Source: Flavivirga rizhaonensis (GTDB taxonomy: Bacteria; Bacteroidota; Bacteroidia; Flavobacteriales; Flavobacteriaceae). Taken from it: DNA of 64,000 nt. The position numbers and the translations under genes were made by a program. The stretch covers positions 124,001 through 188,000 of the forward strand of contig NZ_SRSO01000007.1 of NCBI RefSeq assembly GCF_004791695.1, in the 5' to 3' direction. Of the stretch, positions 35,540 to 59,773 are shown in pieces; position 1 is the first letter of the stretch, and each line of letters begins with the position of its first letter. The notes beneath the pieces are model-generated. The model was not told where the DNA came from. It did not search any database and was given only the letters and a program-made list of their open reading frames with translations.

Positions 35540-37402
35540 ATGACAAAAAGACTTCATCTATATATTATTTCTATAGCCCTAATAATACTATTAATTGGGT
35601 TGCCTCTTGTTAATATAAAAACGTATGCACAATCAACAATTACAAGTAAATTTATCGTGTTTGCTTATAGTTGCTTTGCTATTATAGGGATTCACCTCTT
35701 TTTTATAATCTTCTCTAAGGTAAAAGCGATTTACATTTCTAAAATAGATATTATTCTTTTGATCATTATAGGCTATTTAACATTAAATAGATATGTATTT
35801 CAAGCCGATTATAGTTTTTCTATGAGGTATCTGGAATTATTAGGGTTGAGCATTTTATACCTTGTTATAAGAGGTCTACCAATTAAAAGTTATACATGGC
35901 TTTTGTTGGCTATAATTATTTCTGGTATCATACAAGCCGTTTATGGTAACCTACAATTATTAGGATATTATCCGTCAAATCACTCAGGGTTTAAACTAAC
36001 AGGAAGTTTTTTTAACCCAGGCCCCTATGCTGGATTTTTAGCTGCTGTATGGCCTGTAGCCTTAGGTATGTATTTGTTTAAGGACCAGGTTATAGTTCAT
36101 GCATTCGAACAGTTTAGAAACAGATCAAAAACAGTCAATATTTTAATAGCGTATGTTTTTGAATATATACCAGTTCTGGGAATTGCTTGTATCATGCTAG
36201 TCATTCCATCAACACATTCTAGAGGAGCTTGGCTATCCATAATAATAAGTAGTATTCTTTTAATAGAGTATAGATACCTATTAATTAGCAAAGTATTAAA
36301 AAAACTTAACCATATCAAAAGAGGGATATTAATAACTCTCACCGTGTTAATAATAAGTGGTGGCTTATTTGGAGTATATCATTTCAAAAAGGGGTCTTCA
36401 GATGGGCGTTTGTTCATATGGAAAGTTACTACAGAGATTGTTAAGGATAACCCATTCTTTGGTGTTGGCTTCGATCGTTTTAAGGCACATTATATGAATT
36501 ATCAAGCCAATTACTTTGTTGAGCATGGTGAAACCGCTGAGACCTTGGTAGCAGATAATAGCTATTACACCTTTAATGAGTGGTTACAATATACTGCAGA
36601 GAATGGACTTGTAGGTGGTGTGTTGCTATGTGTACTTTTATATTTATTACTTAAGATCTCTATAAGAAAAGAATATAAATACCTATATATTCTTTTGGTG
36701 TTTGGGTTATTAGCATGTGCTGTCTTTGCATTTTTTTCATATCCTTTACAAATAGTGCCTATAAAGCTTGTAGCCTTTGTGTTATTAGCATTGTTGGTGA
36801 ACCTTGATATTAAAAAACACCGAGTTTTTAATACGCAAGAAAAGCCAAAGCCATTCATTCTATTAAAAGCAGGGATATGTATTCTTGGATTAATAGGGGT
36901 TGTAAAAGGGGGGCAATATACCAGTGTTTTAGAGCAAAACTTTAAAACTTGGGAAAATGCTCAAAGTAGTTATCAGTATGGCGATTACCGAGGAGCCATA
37001 CAAGACTATAAAAAGGCATATTCCATTTTAAAAAAAGATGGTGATTTTTTAATGAATTATGGTAAAGCTCTTTCAATTTATAAACGAGATAAAAAAGCAG
37101 TAGAAATTCTAACACAAGCTAAAAACTATTTGAACACTACTATTATAGAAACAGCATTAGGGGATGCTTATAAAAACATGAAACAATACAAAGAAGCCGA
37201 AATAGCTTATAAGCATGCTGCTAATATGATTCCTTCTAGGTTTTATCCATTATATCTCTTAGCTAAATTATATGAAGAAAGTGGTGAAAAAGAGAAAGCG
37301 ATTTTAATGGCTAAAACCATATTAAATAAAAAAGTAAAAATAGCCTCAACTGCCATAGAAGAAATAAAAGAGGAAATGAAAGATATAATCACAAATGAAT
37401 AA
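35540..37402 (+). CDS. O-antigen ligase/polymerase-like membrane protein with C-terminal TPR repeats
   Basis: The protein has 620 residues. About 10-12 membrane helices occupy residues 1-430. The Wzy/WaaL-type loop is recognisable: GFKLTGSFFNPGPYAGFLA, then STHSRGAWLSIIIS, and the large periplasmic loop DNPFFGVGFDRFKAHYMNYQ. Residues 470-610 form TPR-like helix pairs (YQYGDYRGAIQDYKKAYSIL; ALGDAYKNMKQYKEAEIAYK). Such proteins polymerise or transfer lipid-linked glycans, sometimes to proteins. The adjacent lipoprotein and the peptide array suggest an envelope role but not the acceptor. Its last codons (gatataatcacaaatgaa) coincide with the start of a motif conserved upstream of the peptide genes. 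Confidence 0.85.
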   Translation: MTKRLHLYIISIALIILLIGLPLVNIKTYAQSTITSKFIVFAYSCFAIIGIHLFFIIFSKVKAIYISKIDIILLIIIGYLTLNRYVFQADYSFSMRYLELLGLSILYLVIRGLPIKSYTWLLLAIIISGIIQAVYGNLQLLGYYPSNHSGFKLTGSFFNPGPYAGFLAAVWPVALGMYLFKDQVIVHAFEQFRNRSKTVNILIAYVFEYIPVLGIACIMLVIPSTHSRGAWLSIIISSILLIEYRYLLISKVLKKLNHIKRGILITLTVLIISGGLFGVYHFKKGSSDGRLFIWKVTTEIVKDNPFFGVGFDRFKAHYMNYQANYFVEHGETAETLVADNSYYTFNEWLQYTAENGLVGGVLLCVLLYLLLKISIRKEYKYLYILLVFGLLACAVFAFFSYPLQIVPIKLVAFVLLALLVNLDIKKHRVFNTQEKPKPFILLKAGICILGLIGVVKGGQYTSVLEQNFKTWENAQSSYQYGDYRGAIQDYKKAYSILKKDGDFLMNYGKALSIYKRDKKAVEILTQAKNYLNTTIIETALGDAYKNMKQYKEAEIAYKHAANMIPSRFYPLYLLAKLYEESGEKEKAILMAKTILNKKVKIASTAIEEIKEEMKDIITNE

Positions 37403-37530
37403 TTGTTTAACTAAAACTAATGCCAATGATGTAAAGTATATTAAATGATAACAAGGAAATCTATAAGAAAGATTTTGATAGTCTAATGTATTAGGTAATT
37501 ACATATTTTAAAGTAGTATGCCTTTCCAAA
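37383..37530 (+). promoter_or_regulatory. Conserved peptide-gene leader, partial copy (unit A)
   Basis: The copy includes ataatcacaaat, then ttgtttaactaaaa and atgccaatga, as in the copies at 47419, 50230 and 54699, but lacks the CCTCTGAG arm. A promoter-like block, tattttaaagtagtatg, at about 37504-37520 matches the block before the other three peptide genes. The left end overlaps the final codons of the upstream gene. Confidence 0.5.
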
Positions 37531-37568
37531 CTTAAATGTATAAGTATAATAATTTAAAATTTAATAAA

Positions 37569-40137: not shown

Positions 40138-41355
40138 ATGAAAGAATTAAGGATATTACTGGTGTCACTAATCATATTTTTTTCTTGTGAAAAAGATATT
40201 AAAACCACTAATAATACTATATCTATTGATTTGATTTCTGCTATTAGTAATAAAGAAAGAATTAATTTAAGTAGCATAGCTAAAAGCATAGACTATATCC
40301 CTTTACAAACAGATAGTCTTAATTTAATAGGTAAGATAGATAAGCCCAATATAGATGTATTGTTTATTGATAATAAAATATTAATTAATTCTGGGGAATT
40401 ATTTTTATTTACTGATAAAGGGAGGCTTTTAAACAAAATAGGAACCCAAGGTAGGGGACCTGATGAATATGTTAAAATAGCTGATTTTGCGACAATAAAA
40501 AAAGAAAATAACACTTTAGTTGCTATTCATTCTGGAGCTCAACAAAAGGCAATATTATATAACCTTGAAGGAAACCATGTGAAAAGTATACCTATTGATT
40601 TTTGGCCAATGAGGATTACTTCGCTATCTGATGATATAGTATGCATTAATTTAAGAGGTGTTAGAAAAGATTCTGATTACTATGCTTTTAGTATAATATC
40701 TCCTATTAATGGGAAACTAAAGAAAAGGTTATTATATAAGGGAAATGAAAAAGAAATTGAATCAGGAAATAAAAAATTAGATGTTGAAGGTCGAATTAAC
40801 TATTACAAAATAAAGGATACACTCAGTTACTGGGAATCTGGTTATGACACTATATGGAGAATTACTGATGACCTAAAGATCTTTCCAAAATATGTTTTAA
40901 ATATAGGTGAAAATAAAATGCCTATAAATGAACAAATAAATGGTAACTTATTTAACTTTAATAAGATCGTTAAATATAATTCCGTACAAAAATGCTTTGA
41001 ATCTCAAAAATATTTATTTTTTGAGACTTGTATTAATAAACGTCTTCATAAATTATATTATGATAAAAACAGTCAGGAGGTCAATTGTGTAGAATTTAAA
41101 AAACCTTTTGGAAAAGGTATTCATTTTTCTTTTTATAACAATATTGACGGAGGAATGCCTTTTTGGCCACAGGGAAAAATGTCTGATAATAAAATGTTTA
41201 TGTTAGCTTATGGATATGAAATAAAAGATTATTTAGAACGTATAGACGGTAGTTATAATGCTATAGATGAAGCAAGAGAAAGATTATTAAAATTGGTAAA
41301 ACATTCTAAAATTAGTGATAATCCTATTTTAATGGTTGTTACATTGAATAAATAG
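40138..41355 (+). CDS. 6-bladed beta-propeller lipoprotein, unit B
   Basis: The protein has 405 residues with a type II signal peptide ending in IFFSC. The hallmark is LLNKIGTQGRGPDEYVKIAD. The C-terminal half has FYNNIDGGMPFWPQGKMSDN, AYGYEIKDYLER and the end DNPILMVVTLNK, nearly collinear with the unit A propeller. Its own peptide gene is a wreck, and instead of a CxxC gene it is followed, four bases after its stop, by the membrane-fusion protein of an RND exporter. The unit A CxxC gene, about 300 bases upstream, could serve both. Confidence 0.85.
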   Translation: MKELRILLVSLIIFFSCEKDIKTTNNTISIDLISAISNKERINLSSIAKSIDYIPLQTDSLNLIGKIDKPNIDVLFIDNKILINSGELFLFTDKGRLLNKIGTQGRGPDEYVKIADFATIKKENNTLVAIHSGAQQKAILYNLEGNHVKSIPIDFWPMRITSLSDDIVCINLRGVRKDSDYYAFSIISPINGKLKKRLLYKGNEKEIESGNKKLDVEGRINYYKIKDTLSYWESGYDTIWRITDDLKIFPKYVLNIGENKMPINEQINGNLFNFNKIVKYNSVQKCFESQKYLFFETCINKRLHKLYYDKNSQEVNCVEFKKPFGKGIHFSFYNNIDGGMPFWPQGKMSDNKMFMLAYGYEIKDYLERIDGSYNAIDEARERLLKLVKHSKISDNPILMVVTLNK

Positions 41356-47160: not shown

Positions 47161-47361
47161 ATGACCTACGCTGAAAGAAAAGAAAAAGAAACTCATTTGC
47201 TATATCTAATAGAACATGAAAGACTTTGTTCATTAAAAAAAGTAGCGAATGATTACAGTTGTAGTATAAGAACCGTAAAACGAATGCTCTCAAATTTACG
47301 AGAAGAGGGCTATTCCATCATCTATTGCAGAAAAAGCAATAAATATTTTCTTAAAAAATAG
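47161..47361 (+). CDS. Small helix-turn-helix protein heading unit C
   Basis: The protein has 66 residues. Residues 20-55 form a DeoR/HTH_11-like helix-turn-helix: LCSLKKVANDYSCSIRTVKR, then MLSNLREEGYSII and a short wing (YCRKSNKYFLKK). It lies alone, has no partner domain and sits just upstream of the noncoding leader of the unit C peptide. A near-identical but N-terminally shortened copy precedes unit E (54489-54641), so the gene travels with the leader. It may regulate the peptide genes by binding the dyads in that leader; a possible tgacagaatctgtccc dyad begins a few bases after its stop. Confidence 0.78.
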   Translation: MTYAERKEKETHLLYLIEHERLCSLKKVANDYSCSIRTVKRMLSNLREEGYSIIYCRKSNKYFLKK

Positions 47362-47365
47362 CAAA

Positions 47366-47382
47366 GTGACAGAATCTGTCCC
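47366..47382. promoter_or_regulatory. Small dyad after the HTH gene, unit C
   Basis: gacag-aat-ctgtc is a perfect 5-base-arm dyad. The copy after the shortened HTH gene in unit E reads gacaa-aat-ttgtc. Both halves changed together, so pairing or protein-binding symmetry is kept. It could be an operator for the HTH protein or a small hairpin. Confidence 0.5.
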
Positions 47383-47418
47383 TCAAACACATTTTATTTG
47401 TATGGTACAAATATAAAA

Positions 47419-47580
47419 CCTCTGAGCTATTTAATATGTTAAAAAATATAATCACAAATTGTTTAACTAAAAATTCATGCCAATGACATAAATAAAAAAT
47501 ACCCAGAGGAAGTCTTTAATTTTTTAGGCTAAATAGTTTTAAGTTTAAAACTATTTGATATTCTACAAAGGTAGTATTTC
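47419..47580 (+). promoter_or_regulatory. Conserved noncoding leader upstream of peptide C
   Basis: It begins with cctctgag at 47419-47426 and ends its long-range dyad with cccagagg at 47502-47509. A hairpin with 12-base arms, aaatagttttaa / ttaaaactattt, lies at 47531-47556. It is followed by a promoter-like block, ctacaaaggtagtatttcc, at about 47563. The internal box ataatcacaaattgtttaac is also in units D and E and partly in A. The start codon is about 55 bases beyond the block. Confidence 0.7.
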
Positions 47581-47635
47581 CTATAGACTTTTGTTTAGTA
47601 TTAAAATATTTTTCAACAATTTAAATTTAACAGAA

Positions 47636-48031
47636 ATGAAAAGAATAATAGGGTTTTTAGGAATAGTAGTGTTTGCAATTGCTTTATCTTTTAGCATGAA
47701 GATAAATACAAGCTCAAACACTAAATTAGCTAATTTAATGACTATAAATTATGCCAACGCCGAACCAGGAGGTGCGTGGGATAAAACTAAAAGAACACCA
47801 TGCGATCCAATATGGAGAACCAATACTTATAGCTATTGGGCAAATTTGGCATCTTTGACATCTATAATTTCAGAAATTGAAAGTAATGGTCAAACAGTTA
47901 CAGGTACGCAATCATATAATGGGGGTTTTGTAATAACTGCGGAAGCCTATGAAGAAGTTGAACAGGAGAAAAAAGATTGTGTTCAAGGTTGGGGGTTTTG
48001 TTTCACAAAGACCCCTTGTGGTGACGTTTAA
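47636..48031 (+). CDS. NVEALA-like secreted peptide precursor, unit C
   Basis: From ATG 47636 the protein has 131 residues; the frame is open upstream to 47555 but nothing there resembles a leader. The hydrophobic helix is IIGFLGIVVFAIALSFSM, then polar residues and TKLANLMTINYANAE, with ANA as the likely cleavage site. The mature part (about 88 residues) is longer than the others, Trp/Tyr-rich, with four Cys (TPCDP; KDCVQGWGFCFT; TPCGD). Three of the four lie in the last 20 residues. A perfect 32-base palindrome follows before the propeller gene. Confidence 0.75.
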   Translation: MKRIIGFLGIVVFAIALSFSMKINTSSNTKLANLMTINYANAEPGGAWDKTKRTPCDPIWRTNTYSYWANLASLTSIISEIESNGQTVTGTQSYNGGFVITAEAYEEVEQEKKDCVQGWGFCFTKTPCGDV

Positions 48032-48052
48032 CAATGCAAATAACTAAGTCAA

Positions 48053-48084
48053 AAAAATACCAATACGATCGTATTGGTATTTTT
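48053..48084. terminator. Intercistronic hairpin after peptide C
   Basis: This is a perfect 32-base palindrome: arms aaaaataccaatac and gtattggtattttt around gatc. It is the strongest of the four hairpins that separate peptide and propeller genes. Confidence 0.8.
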
Positions 48085-48104
48085 ACATTAGAATATCTAA
48101 AGAA

Positions 48105-49361
48105 ATGAAAAAGCTAAACACATTTATACGATTAATTCTTTTATTAACATTGGTAATAGGTTGTGATAAAAACAAGAAGAGCCCCTATAAAACCATTAAA
48201 ATGGGAGCAATTAAAGACTCCATAAGTATCGAAATAGATAAAAAAATTGCTATTAAAAATTTTTGTTCATTTTTTAAAAAGCAAGAACTTATCAAACTGG
48301 AAACCACTGAAGCTTCATTAGTATCTAGCATAGCTAAAATTGTAAAGCATAAAGACAATATATACGTGTTTGATTGGCATACGGATTATAGTGTATTATG
48401 CTTTAATGGTAAGGGTAAATTTAAATTTAAGCTCAAAAAACTGGGTAAAGGTCCACATGAATATTTTGACTACAATTATGGAGATATTAATGATTATACT
48501 GGTGATATAGAATTATTAGCTAATGGACATCGTCATTTAATAGTTTATGATTCTTTAGGTAATTTTAAGGAGAAAATTAAAATACCTTACAGCTCAAATA
48601 GCTTTTGTAGCCTTAAAGACAAACGCTATTTTTATAAAGGCTATATAGAAAATAAAGAAGAAGATTTTAATTTTAGACTTTACAGTACTGATAACAAATG
48701 TAAAAATATACTAGCTAAGTATTTACCATATAAAGTATCGAAAGATCCTGAAGCAAGTTCTGGTTATGTTTATGGATTTTCTAAAGTTAAAAAAGGAGAA
48801 TATCGATTTGTAGAGGCGTTTAATGATACAATATACAAGATAGACACCACTTCTTTTTCATCTTTATATAAGCTAACATTTAATGGATATGAAAGGAATA
48901 AACCCTACGATTTTATGTATAATAACAATAAATTTGGAAAAAAAAGAGAGTGGGCTAGAAAATTAAAAATACCAAACCTTAAAACATTTTATGAATTTAA
49001 AGACTACATAGCTGGTTCTTATATTACAAATTTAGAGAAGTCTGCTTATATAAAATATTTTATATACGATAAAAAAAACAAAACAACATTATATAATGGC
49101 TATGGGGTTAGTTTTTCTAATCAGATAAGTGTGAGTATTTCTGAGATATTACCAAAAATAACTTTAAATGGCATGCCCGCCACCCACATATCTCCAGATA
49201 GAATAGAACGTTCCATTAAAAACTTAGCAATAGATTTACTTTATAAGAATAAAAAAGAAGAAGTAAGAGAAACTTTAAGATCTTATTTTGACTATGATGG
49301 CAATATTACAGCAAATCCTTATATCATCACTTATAAACCTGAAAAAAATGAGGATAAATAA
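48105..49361 (+). CDS. 6-bladed beta-propeller lipoprotein, unit C
   Basis: The protein has 418 residues with a type II signal peptide ending in LVIGC. The hallmark is FKFKLKKLGKGPHEYFDYNY. It is diverged from the A and B propellers and lacks their GMPFWP block. A central region reads YVYGFSKVKKGEYRFVEAFN, and the C-terminus is NPYIITYKPEKNEDK in place of NPILM. The stop overlaps the start of the CxxC gene by 14 bases, so the two are translationally coupled. Confidence 0.84.
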   Translation: MKKLNTFIRLILLLTLVIGCDKNKKSPYKTIKMGAIKDSISIEIDKKIAIKNFCSFFKKQELIKLETTEASLVSSIAKIVKHKDNIYVFDWHTDYSVLCFNGKGKFKFKLKKLGKGPHEYFDYNYGDINDYTGDIELLANGHRHLIVYDSLGNFKEKIKIPYSSNSFCSLKDKRYFYKGYIENKEEDFNFRLYSTDNKCKNILAKYLPYKVSKDPEASSGYVYGFSKVKKGEYRFVEAFNDTIYKIDTTSFSSLYKLTFNGYERNKPYDFMYNNNKFGKKREWARKLKIPNLKTFYEFKDYIAGSYITNLEKSAYIKYFIYDKKNKTTLYNGYGVSFSNQISVSISEILPKITLNGMPATHISPDRIERSIKNLAIDLLYKNKKEEVRETLRSYFDYDGNITANPYIITYKPEKNEDK

Positions 49362-49908
49362 AAATAATATCTTAATCATAGCATTTATTTATATACTCCT
49401 ATTCTTCACATCATGTAAAAAGACTGTTCAATCGAAAGAGTTACAAAATAAAAGTATGTATAGTGAAAACACGAATTTAAATTCTAAAATCCTAAAAATG
49501 TTACAGCATGATAAGGTCTTTTACAATAAAATTAAAGATTTAACTGAGGAAACATCTAAACTATTCTTTTGTTATTCTAAACATGAATGTAGCACATGTA
49601 TCGATAATGCCTTTTTGGACATATATACCCTGACTAAAGATCATGCCTTTTTTAATGATGCAATAGTAATAACTCCAGAACTTGAAGAAAAAGAATTACA
49701 AAACCTAAACAGACGTTATGATAGTAAAATAGAGTTTATTAATCATAAAGATATTATTTGGGATAACAACTATTTAAATAATGCGAGTAACTTATCTCTT
49801 TTCTTTGTTATTAACCAAGAGACCAAAGTAGAAAATGCTTTTATTTACAAAAGACGAAACACTAAATTAAACACTAGGTATTTTAGGCATTTAAAAAACA
49901 TCTACTAA
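49348..49908 (+). CDS. CxxC thioredoxin-like lipoprotein, unit C
   Basis: Starting at ATG 49348, inside the propeller gene, gives 186 residues: MRINKNNILIIAFIYILLFF, ending the type II signal peptide at TSC. A start at 49288 would put 20 unrelated residues before the signal peptide. The CxxC lies in SKHECSTCIDNAFLDIYTL. The rest (VITPELEEKELQNLNRRYDS; NLSLFFVINQETKVENAFIY) fits the alpha/beta pattern of a thioredoxin fold. No clear cis-Pro is seen before the LSLFFV strand. Probably a lipoprotein facing the periplasm. Confidence 0.72.
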   Translation: MRINKNNILIIAFIYILLFFTSCKKTVQSKELQNKSMYSENTNLNSKILKMLQHDKVFYNKIKDLTEETSKLFFCYSKHECSTCIDNAFLDIYTLTKDHAFFNDAIVITPELEEKELQNLNRRYDSKIEFINHKDIIWDNNYLNNASNLSLFFVINQETKVENAFIYKRRNTKLNTRYFRHLKNIY

Positions 49909-50229
49909 CTTTCTATTTAACAAATGAGCCTGAAAAAAAATCCCCTTTAATTATTCTTTCTTTATTTACTTTAATATTTGGAGAATTCTGGATTGCTATA
50001 GTGGTAATGTTAACCGTCATAAGTAGAAAATGCTTATGTCTTTATTATAAAAGAACAATTAGTGAACTGATTAGAACAATTTATACCCCGCAAATTGGTC
50101 TGTGAGAATATACTTTTAAACAATGAAAGTTTTATTGCTAAAAACTAGAAATATAGTTAGTCTATGTTATAATAACCAGGACAGCTATAATTAGTAGTAA
50201 GATATACAATATATGAACTTACAGAAAAA
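49909..50229. other. Intergenic region with a possible membrane-protein remnant
   Basis: An open frame without ATG at about 49924-50104 encodes a hydrophobic segment (SPLIILSLFTLIFGEFWIAI, then VVMLTVISRKCLCLYYKRTI) and stops after IYTPQIGL. I do not recognise it, and it may be the tail of a lost gene. The remaining DNA up to the leader of unit D shows no other gene. Confidence 0.3.
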
Positions 50230-50445
50230 CCTCTGAGTATTAAAAAATTAAAAAAGTATAATCACATATTGTTTAACTAAAAAATGAGCTTATGAAATAA
50301 ACCCAAACAAACACTCAGAGGAAGAATTTTATTTCGTGCTTGACACGGAATCTATTAAATTGAATCTGAATTTTAAAGATTTATAATTCTTAAAATGACT
50401 TAAACAAATATAAGTTATTAATATGTTTTGCAAAGTAGCATATCT
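50230..50445 (+). promoter_or_regulatory. Conserved noncoding leader upstream of peptide D
   Basis: The dyad is perfect here: cctctgagt (50230-50238) and actcagagg (50313-50321), about 75 bases apart. Between them lies ataatcacatattgtttaac. The 3' part is diverged from units C and E, but the promoter-like block survives as tatgttttgcaaagtagcat near 50423-50442. No HTH gene precedes this copy. Confidence 0.65.
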
Positions 50446-50515
50446 CTTTTATAAACTTTGTTAAAGTAAATAAATTTAAGAGGAAAACCCTCATTAACAA
50501 TTTAAATTAAATAAA

Positions 50516-50818
50516 ATGAAAAAAGTAATTGGAAGCTTTATTGTTTTAGCCTTAGCGGCTGGATTTTATATAAATACGCAAAGTGATAATTTAGAAGCAA
50601 ATGGTGATTATGTGTTGGATCAATTGTTTACTAAAGCTCATGCGCAAAATGAGGGAGGAGGAGGAATTCCCCCAGGAGGAAACCCTACAGAAGGAACTTG
50701 TACTATAACTACAATAATAACGGATAGTAACGGAAAAGAAATATCCAGAACATCAAAGCCTGGTGTTTCTAATGAATGTCCATCTGGATCAAGTGTATGC
50801 GAATATTCTTGTACATGA
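50516..50818 (+). CDS. NVEALA-like secreted peptide precursor, unit D
   Basis: The protein has 100 residues. The leader has a hydrophobic helix (VIGSFIVLALAAGFYI), a polar stretch and YVLDQLFTKAHAQ, where AHA replaces ANA. The mature part opens with a Gly/Pro-rich run (NEGGGGIPPGGNPTEG) and then has four Cys (TCTITT; NECPSG; VCEYSC). The C-terminal CPSGSSVCEYSCT is strongly Cys-clustered. It differs from A, C and E in both leader and core, so it is the most distant member. A 14-bp hairpin follows, then the propeller gene. Confidence 0.72.
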   Translation: MKKVIGSFIVLALAAGFYINTQSDNLEANGDYVLDQLFTKAHAQNEGGGGIPPGGNPTEGTCTITTIITDSNGKEISRTSKPGVSNECPSGSSVCEYSCT

Positions 50819-50869
50819 TAGCAGATTAATAATAAAGAAAAAATAGAGTATTGTTATATTTTTTTTTAA

Positions 50870-50912
50870 TCAAACATCAACATGGATATTTAAAACATAT
50901 GTTGATGTTTGA
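50870..50912. terminator. Intercistronic hairpin after peptide D
   Basis: Perfect 14-base arms (tcaaacatcaacat / atgttgatgtttga) flank a 15-base loop. It lies between the peptide and propeller genes, as in the other units. Confidence 0.7.
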
Positions 50913-50962
50913 TAAAATTAAAGTAAAAAGTTATTAAATAACATTTAACGATTAACACAAAA

Positions 50963-52249
50963 ATGAAGAGTTTTCAATCAAATCTATTATATAAAAAATA
51001 TAATGTAATTATTTGTATCATAGTTGCAATTATACTGTTTAATTGCAAGGAAGATAAATCTAGAATACCCAGAGAATTAAGGAATGAGCAACAACAAGAT
51101 TTAACCAATGATGATTTAGATATTATACCAGTAGATTACTCATCTGTAAAAAAAATAGTAATACCAGAAAATTCTTTTTCAAAAGAATTAAAACTAGAAG
51201 GTAAAAAAATAATAGATACAGCGTGGTATGTACCTTTGCAAACAACAAGTAAAAGTTTGTTAGGTCAAATTTTAAAAATTGAAATTCATGATGATAAAAT
51301 ATTTGTTTTAGAAAAAACAAGATCTCGTTTATTAGTGTTTTCTAATAAAGGAAGATTTTTAAATCAAATAGGTGCTAAGGGACATGGTCCACATGAATAT
51401 AATGTTATAAGAGATTTTTGTCTTGATAAAAAAAACAAAAAAGCAATTGTTTATGATGACAGAGCGTCTAAGCTCGCTTATTATAATTACGATGGGAGTT
51501 TTAGTAAGAAGGAATCTTTTCCTTTAAGATGTTGGAATTTTTCTTTACATGATGATGTTTTTTTCTTTTATATAGGTGTTAGTGATAATGAACACCTACT
51601 GTATGCCCAAGAATACAACTTAGCTATAAAACCTATTAATAGTCAGGTTATAAAAAAGTTTAGTATTCCCGTGGATCCAAATAAAGCAATTTTTGCTAAT
51701 CAAAATTATTTTAATTCTAACTCAGAATCATTAACATTTTCACTCGGTATAGAAAAAAATATAATATATAAAATTAGTGAAGAAGAAGTCATTCCAGAAT
51801 ATAAAATAATTTTCGACAAACATCAAATTACAGAAGAGCATTTAAAAGATACTGAATTCAGGAATAATTTAGCGAAAACTTCTAAAAAACTAGGGTTAGC
51901 TATTTATAGTGGAAATCATTTATTAAGTAATAATTATATCTACCTTAGATATTCGTATAATAATAAGTTTAATCATTTGATTTATAATAAAAAATCTAAA
52001 AAAAATATTATATGGAATGAGTATACTTCTAATGATCCATATTCTTTATTCGAGATAAATCCATTATATTTAATTTATAACGAAGATATATTCGTAACAG
52101 CAATTGATTCCGATATTTTTCCAAATTTATCCCCGAAAATTGTAGAAGATAAGGACAAAAGATTTAAGAATCTTTGTGCTTCTGTTAAAGAAAGTGATAA
52201 TCCAATTTTATTATTTTATAAAATAAGAGATATGGATTATGAACAATAG
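50963..52249 (+). CDS. 6-bladed beta-propeller lipoprotein, unit D
   Basis: The protein has 428 residues. The type II signal peptide is preceded by a longer N-region and ends in IILFNC. The hallmark is FLNQIGAKGHGPHEYNVIRD. A second blade reads ASKLAYYNYDGSFSKKE. The C-terminus is SDNPILLFYKI, matching the DNPIL ending of the A and B propellers. The stop overlaps the CxxC gene by 11 bases. No enzymatic residues are apparent. Confidence 0.85.
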   Translation: MKSFQSNLLYKKYNVIICIIVAIILFNCKEDKSRIPRELRNEQQQDLTNDDLDIIPVDYSSVKKIVIPENSFSKELKLEGKKIIDTAWYVPLQTTSKSLLGQILKIEIHDDKIFVLEKTRSRLLVFSNKGRFLNQIGAKGHGPHEYNVIRDFCLDKKNKKAIVYDDRASKLAYYNYDGSFSKKESFPLRCWNFSLHDDVFFFYIGVSDNEHLLYAQEYNLAIKPINSQVIKKFSIPVDPNKAIFANQNYFNSNSESLTFSLGIEKNIIYKISEEEVIPEYKIIFDKHQITEEHLKDTEFRNNLAKTSKKLGLAIYSGNHLLSNNYIYLRYSYNNKFNHLIYNKKSKKNIIWNEYTSNDPYSLFEINPLYLIYNEDIFVTAIDSDIFPNLSPKIVEDKDKRFKNLCASVKESDNPILLFYKIRDMDYEQ

Positions 52250-52802
52250 TGATAAAATCATTTTTGGGAGTCAAACGAAAGTAATATTCTTGTCTTTTTT
52301 AATTTTAGCCAGTTGTAATAATATTGGGGAAAGAAAAATAACAAAAGAGTTTGAACGAAAAGGTGATTCAATAAGGGGGGATTTTACACTTTCTTCTTTT
52401 AATGACTCTATAAAGTTATTTAATGATTTACCCAAGCCTAGTGTTGTTATGAGGTATTCTGAACTTAATTGCAGTGTTTGTATTGATTCAACTGTAGCTT
52501 ATGTTAAAAAATTAGAACAAGATCTTGGAATTCCTGTAACTTATATTTCAAGCTATTCAAATAGAAGGGATGTCATATTGTTTAAGGAATTAAACGATAT
52601 TAAAAGTAGTGTTTATAAAACTAATTTTATTTCAAAATATGATTCATTGAATGCCCCTTATTTATATGTTATTGATGATGACCTTGTACAAAAATCAGTG
52701 TTTATTCCAAAAAAAGAAGAGATGGGTGAATATATGGACTACCTTAAATACATTGTTAAACATTATTTTGAAGAATCTCTTAATACGTATAAAAGTAAAT
52801 AA
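52239..52802 (+). CDS. CxxC thioredoxin-like lipoprotein, unit D
   Basis: The protein has 187 residues. A signal peptide ends at FLILASC, so a lipoprotein is likely. The redox motif is in YSELNCSVCIDSTVAYVKKL, following the strand SVVMRYS. The strand NAPYLYVIDDDLVQ contains a Pro at the position where a cis-Pro is expected. The C-terminal helix is GEYMDYLKYIVKHYFEE. It resembles the unit A protein in layout (strand, CxxCI, helix, then FIPKKEE near the end; unit A has FIPIKEK). Confidence 0.75.
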   Translation: MNNSDKIIFGSQTKVIFLSFLILASCNNIGERKITKEFERKGDSIRGDFTLSSFNDSIKLFNDLPKPSVVMRYSELNCSVCIDSTVAYVKKLEQDLGIPVTYISSYSNRRDVILFKELNDIKSSVYKTNFISKYDSLNAPYLYVIDDDLVQKSVFIPKKEEMGEYMDYLKYIVKHYFEESLNTYKSK

Positions 52803-53026
52803 GTTTTTAAAAAGAATTAAATAATTTTAAAATGTATTTGTTGGTAGATAAAAGCTTAAATATCTCACAGATAAAATAGAGTCCTATTTTTTTGTGTAAA
52901 TTCTAATTTAAGAGTGACTAATTTCTTGATAAACCAAAATTATCTAAAAGTTATTTAATAACTACATCTAGAAATTTACGTAGTAACAATATTATAAATT
53001 AATTTAGCCTAACTTATGATAATGAA

Positions 53027-54190
53027 TTGATGAAAAAAAGAATAATAATTGTTCTGTTATTTATAATTGTTCTTCTAATGGACTTATTTTGGTTAGCTTT
53101 AGTTTTTATGTTATTTACGATAATATATTTTGGTGTATTAAAAGTAATAACCTCAATAAAGAGTCCTTTAATTAAAAGATTGTTAAAAGTTTTCTTTATT
53201 TTTTTACTTACTTTTTCAATAAGTATAAGTGCAAAAATATTAATTTTTGATTTTTTTCTAATACCAAGTACCTCCATGGAGGACACATTATTTACACAAG
53301 ACGTTATTTTAGTAAATAAACTAAAATACGGTCCTAGATTACCACGTTCTCCTTTTGATATTCCTTGGTTAAACATTGTCTTTTATTTTAATGAGAATGC
53401 AAAAAAACGAATAAAAAAAGGCAATTGGTGGGATTATAAAAGACTTTCAGGCACTACAGCTATTAAGCAAGGTGATGTTTTTGTATTTAATTCTACATGG
53501 AAAAAACAATTTATAATGGTTAAACGCTGTGTAGCATTATCTGGTGATACACTTTATATAAATGATGGTGAAATCTTTACTAATGACAATCAATTTGTAG
53601 AACCTAATACGGTTAAAAATAAATATAGATTTAATGTTAAAAATAAAATGGCTTTATACAAGGCTTTGGATTCTTTAGCTTTAAACGACATAGTATTAAA
53701 AAATATTGGTGGAGAAATTAACGAAGCTATACTTTCAGAGTTTGAATTAAATCAACTTAAGAAATACGAGTTTGTTAGCTCTGTTTCAAAACAGATAGAT
53801 ACTTTTATTTCAAATAAAACATTTGTCAAATTACCCGATAAAAAATGGACATTCGATAATATGGGACCTATAATTATTCCCGAAAAAGGGATGCAAATAC
53901 CATTAAATACTGAAACTTTTGAATTGTATAAAAGTGCTATTAATAGCTCTGAAGGTTTTAAAATTAAAGAGATTGATGGCGTTTATTACATTGATGGTAA
54001 AGAAGTAAATAATTATACTTTTAAACAAGATTATTATTTTATGGTTGGTGATAATAGGAAAAGAACGATGGACTCTAGAGCTTGGGGATTTGTTCCAGCA
54101 TCAAACATTATAGGTAAAGTACAATGCGTATTATTTTCAAATTACCAAGATAGATTTAGGTGGGATCGATTATTAAAAAGTATAGATTAA
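53027..54190 (+). CDS. lepB: Signal peptidase I (type I, LepB-like)
   Basis: The protein has 387 residues. Two or three N-terminal membrane helices (about 1-75) are followed by box B, IPSTSMEDTL, with the nucleophile Ser. NKLKYGPRLPRSP follows, then the box D Lys in FIMVKRCVALSGDTLYIND, and box E FMVGDNRKRTMDSRAWGFVP. All catalytic residues are in place. The length suggests an insertion of about 100-150 residues between boxes D and E. It stands between units D and E with its own ~220-base upstream gap. Signal peptidase I is usually encoded in housekeeping regions, so a copy inside a peptide array suggests it processes the ANA/AHA precursors. It may equally be a passenger. Confidence 0.92.
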   Translation: MMKKRIIIVLLFIIVLLMDLFWLALVFMLFTIIYFGVLKVITSIKSPLIKRLLKVFFIFLLTFSISISAKILIFDFFLIPSTSMEDTLFTQDVILVNKLKYGPRLPRSPFDIPWLNIVFYFNENAKKRIKKGNWWDYKRLSGTTAIKQGDVFVFNSTWKKQFIMVKRCVALSGDTLYINDGEIFTNDNQFVEPNTVKNKYRFNVKNKMALYKALDSLALNDIVLKNIGGEINEAILSEFELNQLKKYEFVSSVSKQIDTFISNKTFVKLPDKKWTFDNMGPIIIPEKGMQIPLNTETFELYKSAINSSEGFKIKEIDGVYYIDGKEVNNYTFKQDYYFMVGDNRKRTMDSRAWGFVPASNIIGKVQCVLFSNYQDRFRWDRLLKSID

Positions 54191-54488
54191 TTAAATTAGT
54201 GTAATAATAGCTTAACTAAATAATAATTTTATATAAACTCATATGAACTTTAAGTTTTCTCCATTCTCTATACGTATTGTGTTTGTATGACTATCAATTA
54301 TTGGAGCTAGCCTTATATCCTTTGTTAAGTGTTAAAACAACTCCAACCAAGACATTGCCATTAATTTAGATAGCTTTTAGTTGGAAAGAAGCTTCCAATA
54401 AATTTGTTTAACAATAAGTTACGTCAAAAGTTGAAGACGTTCTTTATACGGTTAAGGATATTACCGAATACTTATTTAATTATACTTG
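54191..54488. other. Intergenic region after lepB
   Basis: No supported gene. The DNA contains short broken frames and no recognisable repeat. It ends where the shortened HTH copy begins. Confidence 0.4.
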
Positions 54489-54641
54489 ATGGAGCAAGGA
54501 AGGCTTTATTCATTAAAAAAAGCGGCTAGCAATTATAACTGTAGTATAAGAACCGTAAAACGAATGCTCTCAAATTTACGAGAAGAGGGCTATTCCATTA
54601 TCTATTGCAGAAAAAGCAATAAAAATTTTCTTAAAAAATAG
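54489..54641 (+). pseudogene. Shortened copy of the small HTH gene, heading unit E
   Basis: ATG at 54489 opens 50 residues: MEQGRLYSLKKAASNYNCSI, then RTVKRMLSNLREEGYSIIYC, RKSNKNFLKK. From SLKK onward it is nearly identical to the unit C HTH protein at DNA and protein level. The first ~15 residues (ERKEKETHLLYLI in unit C) are missing, and a TAA lies in frame four codons upstream. The HTH itself is intact, so a short functional protein cannot be excluded. Confidence 0.65.
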
Positions 54642-54698
54642 CAAAGTGACAAAATTTGTCCCTTAAACGCATTTTATTTGTATGATATAAACATAAAA

Positions 54699-54862
54699 CC
54701 TCTGAGCATTTAAATGTTAAAAAATATAATCACAAATTGTTTAACTAAAAAATGAGTCAATGAAATAAACCCAAACAAAATACCCAGAGGAAGTCTTTAA
54801 TTTTAGGCTAAATAGTTTTACGAAAAAAACTATTTAATATTTTGCAAAGGTAGTATTTCCTC
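54699..54862 (+). promoter_or_regulatory. Conserved noncoding leader upstream of peptide E
   Basis: It is nearly identical to the unit C leader: cctctgag at 54699, cccagagg at 54783, the aaatagtttt...aaaactattt hairpin at 54810-54835, and the block tattttgcaaaggtagtatttcc at about 54838. Together with the HTH copy it makes a ~370-base segment duplicated between units C and E. Confidence 0.7.
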
Positions 54863-54912
54863 AAAGACTTTTGCAGAAAAGTTAATCATATAATAATTTA
54901 AAATTAAAGAAA

Positions 54913-55131
54913 ATGAAAAAATTAATTGGATTAATAACTGCTATGACATTTGCATTGAGTGTTTTTTTTGTATCAAATACAACATCTAACGACATGGATT
55001 TAGCGTCTTTAATGAGCTTAAATTCTGCCAATGCTGAGTGTGTGGGCGTAAGCCATACCACTTTTTATGAATGCAATGCATATGATAGGTGTGTTTATAT
55101 TGGTGCTATAACTAATCACGGTTGTTTATAG
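54913..55131 (+). CDS. NVEALA-like secreted peptide precursor, unit E
   Basis: The protein has 72 residues, the shortest of the set. The leader has a hydrophobic helix (LIGLITAMTFALSVFFV), a polar stretch and MDLASLMSLNSANAE. Cleavage after ANA would leave ~31 residues beginning ECVGVSHTTF, with four Cys (CVGV; YECNA; DRCVY; HGCL). The spacing C-x10-C-x6-C-x11-C would allow two disulphides. It gives the clearest view of what a mature product might be. A hairpin and the DUF4221-like gene follow. Confidence 0.78.
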   Translation: MKKLIGLITAMTFALSVFFVSNTTSNDMDLASLMSLNSANAECVGVSHTTFYECNAYDRCVYIGAITNHGCL

Positions 55132-55226: not shown

Positions 55227-56426
55227 ATGAAAATATATCTATCATGTTTTATTGTATTCATCTTTTTTTCATGTAGCGACCAAAAAATAAACATAAAAAA
55301 TGAAAAAAGCGGACAAATGGCACCTACAATGGAGTTAAGGCAAGTGAATACAAAACCCTTTTTATTAGATACTGATACAGCACCAAAACCGCATTATATT
55401 CAGGTAATCAATGACTCATTGGAAAGCAGACAACTTACCTTTTTAAATTATTACAATAACTCTATCTATTTCTATAACTACAAGACTGAAAAATTTATAA
55501 AAAAAGTAAGCTTTGACAAAGATGGTCCAAATGCTGTTAAAGAGCCCATGGGCTATCATATTAAAAATAGAGACTCTATTTATATATTTAGCAGTCAGTT
55601 AAAGGAAGTATTATTGGCAAATAGCCAAGGTGAAATATTAAATAAAATTTCTTTAATTGGAGGTAAGAGTTCCAAAAGATCGAAAACTGCTTCTTGGTTT
55701 TATACCTACCCTAATTATTATGTAGAAACGGTGACTCCTTTTATAGAAACACCTAGAGGGTTATTGCTCACGGGACAATTTGACATAGATATGAATGATT
55801 CGATAATTAACAAGTTTAAGTTTACGGCAAATATTGATTTTAAATTTGATAAAATAAATTACACGCACACATACCCACCCTCGTTATATGGCAATGGCAC
55901 AGTGTGGGGAGGGGGCTTGCTTACAGAAGTATTCCCTCAGTTACACCCAGATGGGAATAAAATAATCTATAGTTTTCCTGTATCACACCATCTGTACATA
56001 ACCAATATAAATAGTAATACCTATGAAAAAGTTTATGCGGGAAGCAATTTTGCAGGCTCTATTTCTTCTTTGGAGAAAAAACATGGGCGATCAAATGAAA
56101 GGATTTTGTCTAATTTTGTCAGGCAAGATATATATGCTGCCGTTATTTATGATAAGTTCCGCAAAGTATATTATCGTTTTCTCCGGAAAGCCATACCAAA
56201 TGCACCTATAGGTACATCTTGGAAAGAAAAAAATATAGCCATAATAATTATGGATGAAAATTTCAAATATCTAGGAGAGACTGTTCTTGGAATTGAAAGA
56301 GAATGTCATTGGCAAAATTCTTTTGTAACAGAAGAAGGGCTAAACATTGAATATCTTGATATAGGTGATATAGAAGAGGTAAATCTTACCTTAAAAATAT
56401 TTATTCCAAAACGTATTAAAATTTAA
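55227..56426 (+). CDS. DUF4221-like lipoprotein (beta-propeller-like), unit E
   Basis: The protein has 399 residues with a type II signal peptide ending in IFFSC. It lacks the GxGPxEY hallmark of the other four propellers. Instead it has strand repeats such as QLTFLNYYNNSIYFYNYKTE and IYIFSSQLKEVLLANSQGEI, and a long late domain with GHSSK-like basic loops. This looks like the DUF4221 family of Bacteroidota, which is known near NVEALA genes. It takes the propeller's place in this unit. The CxxC gene follows six bases later. Confidence 0.65.
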   Translation: MKIYLSCFIVFIFFSCSDQKINIKNEKSGQMAPTMELRQVNTKPFLLDTDTAPKPHYIQVINDSLESRQLTFLNYYNNSIYFYNYKTEKFIKKVSFDKDGPNAVKEPMGYHIKNRDSIYIFSSQLKEVLLANSQGEILNKISLIGGKSSKRSKTASWFYTYPNYYVETVTPFIETPRGLLLTGQFDIDMNDSIINKFKFTANIDFKFDKINYTHTYPPSLYGNGTVWGGGLLTEVFPQLHPDGNKIIYSFPVSHHLYITNINSNTYEKVYAGSNFAGSISSLEKKHGRSNERILSNFVRQDIYAAVIYDKFRKVYYRFLRKAIPNAPIGTSWKEKNIAIIIMDENFKYLGETVLGIERECHWQNSFVTEEGLNIEYLDIGDIEEVNLTLKIFIPKRIKI

Positions 56427-57014: not shown

Positions 57015-59402
57015 ATGAGATCCCAAAAATCTATTTACAAAGTTTGTTTTTCAGACTGTTATAGCTTTTTATTGGTTTTAAATCTGCTGTTATATTCTTT
57101 TCCCGTGCTTTCCCAGGACAAGAATGTTATGGACAATCTCGCCGAACGGTTACACCTCCAAACAACAAATAAGCCAAAACTCTCCGTCTACCTTCAGACC
57201 AGCAAAGGTATTTATGAAACAGGGGAGGACCTTTGGTTTAAAGGCTATGTGCTGGATGCACAAAGGCTGCTGCCCTCGGCTTTGGACAAGACCCTGTATG
57301 TTCAATTGGAGCGGGAAGACAACAATCAGGTTGTATTACAAGAAAAATTGCAGGTAGGTAACGGTTTTGTAGATGGGCATATCCATATTCAGGATTCATT
57401 ACGGGCAGGAAACTATAGGTTATCTGCATATTCTTCACGATCCTTTAACGCTGGCTCAAAAGAATTCCACGGATTCCGGAAACTTAAAATAGTCGAGCGC
57501 ATTTCTACGCAACCAAAAGACACAACATTTTTAGGACAAGGTAGGGCAATAAAAAACGACAGTATACACTTCAGCGTATTTCCAGAGGGAGGCCATCTGG
57601 TATCAGGTATATTAAGTACTATTGGTTTTAAGGCGGTTGACGCCAAAGGCCTGCCAAAAGATGTTTTGGGCACCCTGTATGAAAACGACAAGCCCTTATT
57701 GACCTTTAAGAGCACGCACGCTGGTATGGGGCGTTTTTTACTAACTCCCAATAGCAATAAACGCTACCATATTAAGTTAAAGGGACCTTCACCCCAACAA
57801 GTCTATATATTGTCAGGAATAAAAACTCAAGGTAAGGTTCTGCAACTTCTTAATACCCCAAAAGAAGAACTCGTGTTTAAAGTGTCTCAATCTTCTAGTT
57901 TAAAAAAGGAAAGTGTTTATTTAAGGGTTCAGATACGTGGCTTGGTTTATACCATTGCAAAAGCCCTGTTGGATAAAGAAACCATTATAAAAATTCCGTT
58001 AAAGGACCTGCCACAAGGTATTGCGGAAGTGACGCTGTTCAATGAAAGCCTAAAACCTGTGGCGGAACGGCTAGTATATGTAAATCACGACCAAAAACTA
58101 TATATAAAAGCGATATTGGATAAAGGCGAATACCTAACCAAAGAAGAATCCAAATTAAGGTTAAAGGTAACAGACCAAAATGGCGACCCCGTAGTAGCAC
58201 ATTTGGGCTTGAGTGTTTATGACCAGATCTACAAAACCCCAGAAGATTGTAAAACCATAGAAAGCCATTACCAGCTTTCCACACAGCTTAAAGGAACCCT
58301 CTACAATCCAGGTTATTATTTTGATGAAAAAAACGAGGACAGAAAACAAGCTTTGAACCTCTTGCTGCTTACCCAAGGCTGGAGGCGCTATGTATGGAAC
58401 GAACAAAGCCTGAAAGCACAGAAACCTTTGGACAGCCTGTATGTCAAAGACCATGTTGAAGGCGAGCTTGCTTATATCAAAAAAAGAAAAAACACGACGA
58501 AACAGAGCATGGTTGTGATCTACAATCCCTTAGAGGAAGGTAACGAGACGTTTATACCATTGGATAGTCTTGGCAGGTTCGCTTTGACCGCAGACCATCT
58601 AAAAATGGGGAGGAAATTATATATTAAACATTTTGGCACAGATAGGGATAGGATACAGGTTACCGTTAAAGACCCGTTTAATGCCATCAATAAAATTAAA
58701 GAAACTAAGCATTATAGTTACCCTTTAGCCATTATAGCAGAGAAAGAAGCATACAACGAATCTGATGTTAAGGCATGGGCATCAATACAAGAGGGCGTTA
58801 CTCTGGACGAAGTGGAAATTAAAGGTAAAAAGAAACGTATATATAGGGATAAATATCTAAGTAAGCTCGATAGCCTAGAGAAGTTAAAAATGGTTGAAAG
58901 GAATCTTGATTATGTGTGTAAACTAGATAATTATTTAAATTGTCCAATACACCGTAGAAGTAATAGCAGGAAACCAGTAGAAGGAGAAGTTTATTTAGAA
59001 TTTATGTTTTTTAGTGATGGTGAATGGCTTAAGGGAATAGCACCAGTAGGAGTAGGATATTGGTTTAAAAGCCCACCACTCCCACCATATCATAGTGATC
59101 CTTATTTATCAAAGGCTAATCTTATGAGTAGGTATAATTTAATGTGTACTGAAGGGTATTCCCCTAAAAAAGTATTTTATGAACCTGTTTATGATACGAT
59201 AGAACAAACAAATGGTTTTCCAGATTATAGAAATACTTTATTATGGAAACCAGATATCATAACCGATAAAAATGGGGAAGCCACTATTCGTTTTTATTGC
59301 TCTGATATTAATACAAAATTTATTGGTATTGTTGAGGGTGTAGGTATAAGTGACGAAGGGTTTTTAGGAACAAAATCTTTTGAGTTTTTTGTTAGGAAAT
59401 AG
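57015..59402 (+). CDS. MG2 (macroglobulin-like) envelope protein, copy 1
   Basis: The protein has 795 residues. The signal peptide (SFLLVLNLLLYSFPVLSQ) is followed by the MG2-type module KLSVYLQTSKGIYETGEDLW, FKGYVLDAQ. Further beta-sandwich domains include FSVFPEGGHLVSGILSTIGF and PLKDLPQGIAEVTLFNESLK. The region LLLTQGWRRYVWNEQSLKAQ and the C-terminal VTLDEVEIKGKKK are common to Bacteroidota proteins that carry a plug-like segment before a TonB-linked partner. The last domain ends in TKSFEFFVRK. Its DNA is noticeably richer in G+C than copies 2 and 3 (runs such as ctgctgccctcggctttgg). Likely located in the outer membrane or periplasm; function unknown. Confidence 0.8.
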   Translation: MRSQKSIYKVCFSDCYSFLLVLNLLLYSFPVLSQDKNVMDNLAERLHLQTTNKPKLSVYLQTSKGIYETGEDLWFKGYVLDAQRLLPSALDKTLYVQLEREDNNQVVLQEKLQVGNGFVDGHIHIQDSLRAGNYRLSAYSSRSFNAGSKEFHGFRKLKIVERISTQPKDTTFLGQGRAIKNDSIHFSVFPEGGHLVSGILSTIGFKAVDAKGLPKDVLGTLYENDKPLLTFKSTHAGMGRFLLTPNSNKRYHIKLKGPSPQQVYILSGIKTQGKVLQLLNTPKEELVFKVSQSSSLKKESVYLRVQIRGLVYTIAKALLDKETIIKIPLKDLPQGIAEVTLFNESLKPVAERLVYVNHDQKLYIKAILDKGEYLTKEESKLRLKVTDQNGDPVVAHLGLSVYDQIYKTPEDCKTIESHYQLSTQLKGTLYNPGYYFDEKNEDRKQALNLLLLTQGWRRYVWNEQSLKAQKPLDSLYVKDHVEGELAYIKKRKNTTKQSMVVIYNPLEEGNETFIPLDSLGRFALTADHLKMGRKLYIKHFGTDRDRIQVTVKDPFNAINKIKETKHYSYPLAIIAEKEAYNESDVKAWASIQEGVTLDEVEIKGKKKRIYRDKYLSKLDSLEKLKMVERNLDYVCKLDNYLNCPIHRRSNSRKPVEGEVYLEFMFFSDGEWLKGIAPVGVGYWFKSPPLPPYHSDPYLSKANLMSRYNLMCTEGYSPKKVFYEPVYDTIEQTNGFPDYRNTLLWKPDIITDKNGEATIRFYCSDINTKFIGIVEGVGISDEGFLGTKSFEFFVRK

Positions 59403-59773
59403 GCTATAATCTTGATGCTATTTCTTTTGTTTATAGTTTTGAGAAGAATGTTGTTGTTCCGAATGCTATCGAAAACAAAATACATTTTGTTAGAAGATAA
59501 AAGTGAAGCTTATGAGGAGGAATCTCATCCTTTTGAGATTTCTCGCAAGTTTATACTGAGTACTTCGACTGCGCTCAGTATAAACTAAAGTAGAAAGATG
59601 TTGAAATGGTAAAAACATGTTAAATATGTGTTTGCCTAGAAAGGTTACATACATCTTTAGTTTTAATAAACAGTTATGCTTACAATACGAATGTTATTAA
59701 TTATAACAGCTTATAAAATTTTTAAAACTGAGATTATTAGTGATCAACTACTTAATTTCTTTAATAGATAATT
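59403..59773. repeat. Intergenic repeat after MG2 copy 1 (with hairpin)
   Basis: It is nearly identical to 62171-62565. It carries a strong hairpin, gtttatactgag (59549-59560) and ctcagtataaac (59574-59585), around tacttcgactgcg. The TTCGACTGCGCTCAG sequence is a dispersed repeat seen widely in flavobacterial genomes. The hairpin probably terminates transcription. The last ~100 bases hold the shared upstream region of copies 2 and 3. Confidence 0.8.

Follow-up and report, generated by a model that had tools for sequence, protein, structure and literature searches.

Why should two units of one gene array carry closely similar sequences of several hundred bases in front of peptides and propeller proteins that are unlike each other? 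The question arises in a 64,000-nucleotide stretch of the marine flavobacterium Flavivirga rizhaonensis (positions 124001-188000 of contig C81 in an assembly of 4.9 Mb; hereafter the window). Here a membrane-fusion protein gene (assigned by eye), an RND permease gene (ACR_tran), a TolC gene (OEP) and a small helix-turn-helix (HTH) gene stand in this order, followed by units of peptide, propeller and CxxC protein that we denote by the letters A to G. The first-pass annotation had proposed that the front end of such a unit, i.e., the HTH gene with the noncoding leader behind it, moves or is copied independently of its cargo. Our analyses point to another explanation, which we regard as fairly probable: the repeat represents a control region under constraint, belonging to an array of peptide cassettes in which leaders recombine and blocks are duplicated in tandem.

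Front ends of units C and E

Alignment of 47201-47593 (C) with 54481-54873 (E) gave 87.2% identity over 398 aligned bases (E-value 1e-135), extending from HTH codon 14 to the end of the leader hairpin P3. Hence, the segment is indeed duplicated before C and E, and the copies are strongly alike, but the earlier wording "nearly identical" goes too far for an identity of 87% and for a copy E that has just HTH codons 14-66. In 60-base bins, identity was 82-98% for 47221-47580, 72% for 47581-47640, and 59-72% in the bins past 47640 through the peptide gene. The cargoes are unlike, as had been noted: the peptides are 32% identical over 72 aa, the propellers match different Pfam families (DUF5128/PF17170 in C, DUF4221/PF13970 in E), and blastp of one propeller against the other returned E = 1.0. 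Leader and cargo have not diverged to the same degree. Parts of the leader also precede D (50226-50334) and A (37379-37435), again in agreement with the first-pass annotation, and the search for further copies that it had suggested (on the DNA, and with an RNA profile at E <= 1) found six in the whole assembly, all in this one array, with F and G located just past the window edge.

The C leader is 89-90% identical to leaders Apa_1 and Apa_28 of Algibacter pacificus and 85% identical to that of Hyunsoonleella; fourfold third sites compared with A. pacificus are 37% identical both in RND1 (n=263) and in TolC (n=114). Since an A. pacificus leader matches C as closely (90%) as E does (87%), high identity alone is no sign of recent copying. 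Among the five main units of A. pacificus, leaders are 84-93% alike, propellers 24-33% and peptides 26-40%. The match of E with G077, a genome of another genus, is lower than the cross-genus pairs of C (73% over 453 bases, HTH part included). We suggest that strong constraint, not recency, explains most of the leader likeness, and that the likeness of C and E reflects mostly shared descent under such constraint, not a mobile front end.

Separate histories of leaders and cargoes

The approximately unbiased (AU) test rejected a single clade of the C and E propellers (p = 4.8e-7), and likewise of the D and F propellers (1e-10). Grouping the leaders by cargo was rejected for E/G006_2/G077 (p = 0.005) and F/Apa_25/Hul_1 (0.032), and not for Sse_1/Apa_1 (p = 0.063). 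Moreover, cargo types cross genera: the F-type propeller is found in A. pacificus (63%) and Hyunsoonleella (54%), the E type in G006 (52%) and G077 (48%). No genome signal was seen in the propeller tree (26 rows; 18 label changes, as many as the mean of 18.0 after shuffling), and a weak one in the leader tree (21 rows, computed without G and without units lacking an exact core match; 11 changes vs 13.0, with 11 of 200 shuffles as low), where the A. pacificus label was clustered (2 changes vs 6.1; 1 of 500 shuffles).

The leaders themselves appear to be composite. The D front end matches that of unit G006_2, whose cargo is of the E type, at 90% over 309 bases, and this match ends at 50334; past that position the G006_2/E match continues (84.6%, 182 bases in all), as does the D/F match (77.6%, 228 bases). 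In the 5' half, D pairs with G006_2 (93%, z 24.8; D/E z 0.8), and the core is 83-95% identical in all 14 pairs compared. In the 3' half, D/F reaches z 9.9 and E/G006_2 z 14.5, with z 2.7-5.3 for the six crossed pairs (C/D, C/F, D/E, E/F, D/G006_2, F/G006_2). Thus an HTH/dyad 5' half is joined to a CE-type 3' half in C, E and G077, a dyad to the DF type in F, the D type to the DF type in D, and the D type to the CE type in G006_2. The presence of four of four half-combinations implies recombination between the halves, unless one of these arose twice. The 3' half travels with the cargo, as G006_2 and E have both in common. Judging by these alignments, the leaders are mosaics with one joint, at the 3' arm of stem P1, a placement that rests on few sequences, some of them from draft genomes. 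Accordingly, the part of the earlier claim that gave front end and cargo separate histories stands (AU tests, mosaic leaders), but the part that had the front end moving by itself does not, as discussed below.

A predicted leader RNA

On the plus strand, the leader would fold into three hairpins or stems (P1-P3) over about 175 bases. Across 17 leaders, 96.1% of 388 cells were paired and 11 of 23 pairs had changed on both sides (9 of 11 in P2, 2 of 7 in P3, 0 of 5 in P1). None of 500 shuffles reached any of the pairing measures, and sliding the partner by 1-3 bases lowered pairing to 36-58%. The pair table holds 27 G.U against 3 A.C cells, although its cells are not independent; G.U well above A.C favors a plus-strand RNA over DNA. 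The block at 47566-47593, which the first-pass annotation had called promoter-like, more probably forms the terminal hairpin of this RNA. We put a promoter at this place aside because P3 pairs and because a -7-like box sits at a fixed place behind the dyad described below; the likelier promoter would lie ~170 bases upstream of the P3 block.

Rfam gave no match at the gathering score in the window and, in 9 loci, a single weak match, which lies outside the leader and on the opposite strand. Complementarity of the P3 loop to AGAGGAA (the 3' strand of P1) was 4.76 vs 3.19 in shuffled loops; when AGAGGAA/P3-loop partners were permuted among the leaders, 545 of 2000 permutations scored as high as the true partners. 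P1 and the P3 loop may form a switch, but the permutation lends this no support.

The HTH protein and its candidate operator

AlphaFold2 predicted the whole HTH protein as a winged helix (pLDDT 92), with helices at residues 3-18, 25-31 and 36-49 and strands at 53-56 and 61-64. In Foldseek its fold resembled PDB 9ebr and 1j5y (TM-score by query 0.75 and 0.78; best E 0.004), with no match at E <= 0.001, and its Pfam score for HTH_11 was 20 bits, under the cut-off of 25. These structures are winged helices of the NiaR/HTH_11 type; the present protein, of the same fold, has 66 aa and is without an effector domain.

In 11 of the 14 near loci, a dyad starts 4 bases past the stop codon of the HTH gene. 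At a distance of 23 bases from the dyad centre to the TTTG of the predicted -7 box, mean complementarity was 0.74 vs 0.27 over all distances (12 of the 14 near loci; TTTG is absent from the range in L059 and L096, and the E remnant was left out). Distance 23 came out on top again, weakly, in distant loci (0.42 vs 0.28, sd 0.06; 10 of 22, the remainder being without TTTG in range). This fixed-distance test replaced an automatic best-dyad search based on letter shuffles, which was too noisy (11 of 37 frames at <=5/100 shuffles) and gave TTTG at 11-17 in 10 of 37. In the second HTH locus of G685 (L096:7400-7627), a shifted stop codon puts the dyad inside the HTH reading frame.

Residue 40 of the recognition helix tracks the base after TGTC in the 18 dyad-bearing frames (E remnant excluded), an association that rests on few lineages. 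Both proteins with E40 and a dyad (Confluentibacter, G003) have TGTCGG; K, R or N at this position goes with TGTCC in 15 of 16 cases and with TGTCA in one (L099). Two distant E40 proteins are accompanied by TGTCG or TGACG but not by the complete pattern, and Y or F at residue 40 in distant loci accompanies CACTG..CAGTG-like dyads (L107, L109; by eye). The fixed spacing and the residue-40 association suggest that the HTH protein may bind the adjacent dyad.

In flavobacterial sigma-A promoters, TAnnTTTG lies at -12 to -5 (PMC9723704), and the box found here is similar to it. On this placement, the dyad would span about -39 to -23 and, unlike in those promoters, would itself occupy the -33 place, which suggests repression. 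Most likely, the HTH protein represses the peptide promoter via the dyad; activation is also possible.

A duplication scar at units E and G

The E front end starts at a junction of RND2 codon ~75 with HTH codon ~14, and the same junction is found at G. The stretch common to E and G (signal peptidase 3' end, RND2 aa 1-75, then HTH from codon 14) is 83.6% identical over 611 bases; identity is 100% in two 60-base bins at the signal-peptidase end and 55-84% per bin in the rest of that gene. Contig C25 carries an intact RND2 gene whose 5' end matches, preceded by a remnant of the signal-peptidase 3' end; C81 and C25 are presumably linked. Of the 53 codons in the HTH remnant of E, 8 are changed synonymously and 9 nonsynonymously relative to C, whereas the corresponding numbers for C and G006 are 19 and 9; these counts suggest that the duplication is younger than the split from G006 and that selection has been looser since. 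We take the RND2'/HTH' junction for a tandem-duplication scar rather than the edge of a mobile element, and, by this reading of the junction, tandem duplication of a block made the second HTH-leader.

Proposed mechanism and alternative explanations

We propose that the HTH protein binds the dyad over the -33 site and, most likely, represses the peptide promoter. Transcription would start just before stem P1 and run through P1-P3 into the peptide gene, whose expression the leader RNA may tune. The array would have grown as blocks (HTH'..cargo..signal peptidase..RND2') were duplicated in tandem. Selection keeps the leaders similar even as the cargoes diverge, and for this reason homologous recombination, whether among leaders or with DNA from outside, could swap what lies behind them.

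A regulatory element that is mobile, or is copied on its own, and lands before different cargoes would likewise give front and cargo different histories, and copy G is followed, where its contig ends, by a transposase-like ORF (IS200-like by eye). However, six of six own copies lie in one array, and their 5' borders vary (full HTH, codon 14, last ~20 codons, none) among C, E/G, F, D and Hul_2. Moreover, E and G start at the RND2/HTH junction, and blastn against 72,556 plasmid and 50,697 phage records gave no match. Having found no common borders and no plasmid or phage copies, we rejected this explanation as highly improbable. Simple duplication of whole units, with faster divergence of the cargo afterwards, fits the junction, which shows block duplication as expected, and the great variability of the peptides, but not the unequal divergence of cargo and leader. 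The C and E propellers belong to different Pfam families and not to one clade, and the E propeller has counterparts in other species (48-52%), so that the C and E cargoes would have parted long before the duplication; we hold this alternative to be decidedly unlikely. Possibly, though we doubt it, gene conversion within the genome evens out the leaders while the units stay put. The clustered A. pacificus label and the mutual likeness of the five A. pacificus leaders speak for it, as do the signal-peptidase ends of D and F, which are abruptly 100% identical, whereas some leaders are equally alike between genera, the same cargo type occurs at different positions, and the own leaders are unclustered. 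Finally, the conserved DNA could serve protein binding only (promoter, operators), with no leader RNA. The near invariance of P3 and core, and the TTTG within P3 of most copies, would be in line with this, but the letters of P2 change while its pairing is kept, with G.U far above A.C, and such free sequence change is not the behavior of a protein site; we consider a DNA-only role unlikely.

Our preferred reading, a constrained control region with leader recombination and tandem duplication, has its own difficulties. The C and E leaders form no clade in the best tree, yet such a clade is not rejected (p = 0.21), and the own leaders are unclustered (4 changes vs 4.7; 140 of 500 shuffles), so that direct copying of the leader between C and E is not demonstrated. 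Support for the leader tree is low: of its 18 inner branches 2 are starred and 13 open, the bootstrap has not settled, and the branches where D and F join are long. Percent identity in the 3' half fails to separate the types (D/F 73%, D/E 79%, D/G006_2 76%, E/G006_2 76%); hence the 3' classes rest on z-scores, blast match ends and the longer D and F segments. As for the operator, the near loci show another, overlapping symmetry at 27 (score 0.63), the dyad pattern occurs in only 19 of 37 HTH reading frames (E remnant included), A, D and G006_2 are without a dyad, and the distant R40 protein L104 also has TGACG nearby. The case for an RNA relies mainly on P2, given that P1 has no double-changed pair and P3 has two, and the structure was predicted by a program that allows G.U, which favors the G.U count. 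In addition, the truncated HTH frame stays open in both E and G.

One may speculate further that the core (~98 bases, in the leader RNA) is a dedicated exchange joint, with cassettes cut and rejoined at the 3' stem arm, an idea to which we give little credence. If true, it would mean programmed diversification instead of incidental homologous recombination, with the secreted peptide swapped while promoter and RNA control are kept.

Peptide genes behind the leader

The leader matches numbered 32 in 28 loci, and 27 after subtraction of 4 duplicates (carrying a second locus number) and 1 weak match (E 0.97). A small signal-bearing peptide gene lies behind the leader at 23 of these 27 sites. The peptides have a signal-like start (often MKKIIG), followed by ANAE in 15 and by a variant of the ANAQ/AQA/ANAS type in the rest; their tails are variable and mostly Cys-bearing. 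The four exceptions are G, where the contig ends at the transposase-like ORF, Apa_12, where no such gene was found, and the first units of G006 and G011, in which the propeller comes directly after the leader. Pfam searches with the peptides of C, D, E and A found no NVEALA family at E <= 1 and no toxin domain. The peptides are probably secreted; their regulation, export and function are surmised, and it is conceivable, as conjecture, that the cassettes are bacteriocin-like (antibacterial, with immunity). If the proposed reading is right, the leader offers a search handle for hidden, variable secreted peptides.

Distribution in relatives and in other Bacteroidota

The RND-TolC-HTH order, with one full-length HTH gene each, recurs in five genomes of the same genus and in G077 (same family), and a membrane-fusion gene lies directly 5' in 4 of 6 relative stretches. 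Beyond the HTH gene the relatives carry, in varying make-up, leader, peptide, propeller, mostly a CxxC protein, and signal peptidase, then a second RND permease, unless some other gene lies between. When 84,980 species genomes were scanned, the exact core turned up in 14 stretches, from Algibacter, Flavivirga, Seonamhaeicola, Hyunsoonleella, Confluentibacter and one uncultured Flavobacteriaceae. Six exact cores belong to A. pacificus H164, four of them on scaffolds of 3.3-4.5 kb, as expected of a broken repeat array. The RNA model R2 found leaders in 8 of 397 family genomes, Flavivirga rizhaonensis included. The core match in G444 was discarded, being located inside genes on the other strand (5 of 6 genomes remain), and matches of 26-41 bases in the distant genomes G039, G052, G032 and G051, three in the last HTH codons and one in the core, were set aside as chance.

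With the HTH profile, 37 of 375 class genomes had matches at E <= 1e-5 (Flavivirga rizhaonensis included). The 29 HTH loci examined comprise 20 short reading frames, 8 parts of larger proteins and 1 without a match. Located 3' of the short frames are, by eye, GG-type peptides (L097, L102, L124, L125), signal-bearing peptides (L099-L101 and L112; L099 is DUF6520) and ATP-grasp-like genes (L106, L124). Since larger proteins follow the HTH in L098, L107, L109, L110, L113 and L114, and nothing telling was seen in others, the link between HTH and peptide is frequent, not universal. L044 comes from a different family of the order; its HTH gene stands before a dyad and TTTG, behind which two GG peptides and a C39-like ABC exporter are encoded. 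A compact HTH-dyad-promoter module would precede secreted-peptide genes in several Bacteroidota families.

Relation to known systems

Polymorphic toxin cassette arrays combine constant parts with recombining variable cassettes, and their products are probably secreted. The present array is like them in these features (PMC3482391), but here the constant joint is a noncoding leader before whole operons, not an N-terminal protein domain, and the peptides are short. The GG-leader peptide operons of Bacteroidota (L044, named by eye) also have a relative of the HTH gene directly ahead, with dyad and TTTG; they carry a GG leader and a C39-like ABC exporter, whereas the array has signal-bearing peptides with RND/TolC. 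Bacteroidetocins (PMC8546649) are small peptides of Bacteroidota as well, a likeness by description only. Among literature titles and abstract starts we found nothing on a leader RNA common to the cassettes of an array, on an HTH-dyad-promoter module before secreted-peptide genes, or on a leader doubling as a place of cassette exchange. Nor did these titles and abstract starts yield anything on NVEALA, on DUF6520/DUF4221/DUF5128 or on the locus itself.

Gene content of the window and further observations

The features discussed above are collected in Table 1. The CxxC protein of C had no match to a thioredoxin family in Pfam.

Table 1. Features of the array within the window, in order of position
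Feature	Position	Strand	Remarks
Divergent leader, unit A	37381..37538	+	Begins within the end of the Wzy_C-TPR gene; A. pacificus counterpart
Full-length small winged-helix (HTH) gene, unit C	47161..47361	+	66 aa; 24 bases past the TolC gene; same place in relatives
Operator candidate, dyad GTGACA-N5-TGTCCC	47366..47382	.	4 bases after the HTH stop
Predicted -7 box TTTATTTG (consensus TAnnTTTG)	47393..47400	+	TTTG 23 bases past the dyad centre; putative promoter
Leader core of C	47415..47512	+	P1 (47419-47423 with 47505-47509) encloses the conserved TATAATCACAAATTGTTTAACTAAA block; putative mosaic joint at 3' end
Hairpin P2 of C	47530..47557	+	Covarying; 9/11 pairs changed on both sides
Hairpin P3 of C	47566..47593	+	Promoter-like block of the first-pass annotation
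Peptide gene, unit C	47636..48031	+	Signal-like start, ..YANAE.., variable C-terminus
Propeller of C, DUF5128	48105..49361	+	Pfam; lipoprotein by eye
CxxC thioredoxin-like protein of C	49348..49908	+	Motif by eye
Front end of D	50027..50334	+	Core and 5' half without HTH or dyad
Peptide gene, unit D	50516..50818	+	
Propeller of D, DUF5128	50963..52249	+	Pfam
Signal peptidase I, Peptidase_S26	53030..54190	+	Shared junction begins at its 3' end
Decayed 5' end (aa 1-75) of RND2 permease gene	54243..54468	+	Stops and frame change
Truncated HTH remnant of E, codons 14-66	54480..54641	+	Without most of helix 1 (residues 3-18)
Dyad of E	54646..54662	.	TTTG at 54677-54680
Leader core of E	54695..54793	+	P1 = 54699-54703 with 54786-54790
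Hairpin P2 of E	54809..54836	+	
Hairpin P3 of E	54845..54873	+	
Peptide gene, unit E	54913..55131	+	..NSANAEC.., tail with Cys
Propeller of E, DUF4221	55227..56426	+	52% to G006_2, 48% to G077

A Wzy_C (O-antigen ligase) protein with TPR repeats is encoded at 35540-37402, 5' of unit A, and the end of its gene overlaps the A leader; Wzy_C/TPR-like genes also adjoin the locus in some relatives. By eye, the interval 39840-40137, 5' of propeller B (40138-41355), contains no intact peptide gene; a short ..ANAGGRCCGG.. reading and a CAGAGGAAG motif in it may be what is left of a peptide and its leader. The noncoding 49930-50160, 5' of D, has weak likeness to the signal-peptidase start (E 0.07) and matches the array of a relative at 76% over 109 bases; it may be a further duplication scar. 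Genes for MG2-domain proteins stand in tandem between units E and F (57015-64000 and L007:1-7326); their starts in the window are 86-94% alike, and a 205-base stretch behind them is 99% identical in two copies. The peptide gene of unit F (L007:8410-8700) stops early, at 64 aa, and its Cys codons seem to run on in another frame, so it may be broken. At its end, C81 holds the start of an IS200-like transposase (L007:12654-12866, by eye), and the start of C25 (L054:1-250) may, by eye, be the end of an IS200-like element. On C25, an IS630-like remnant (by eye) occupies the position expected for the signal peptidase.

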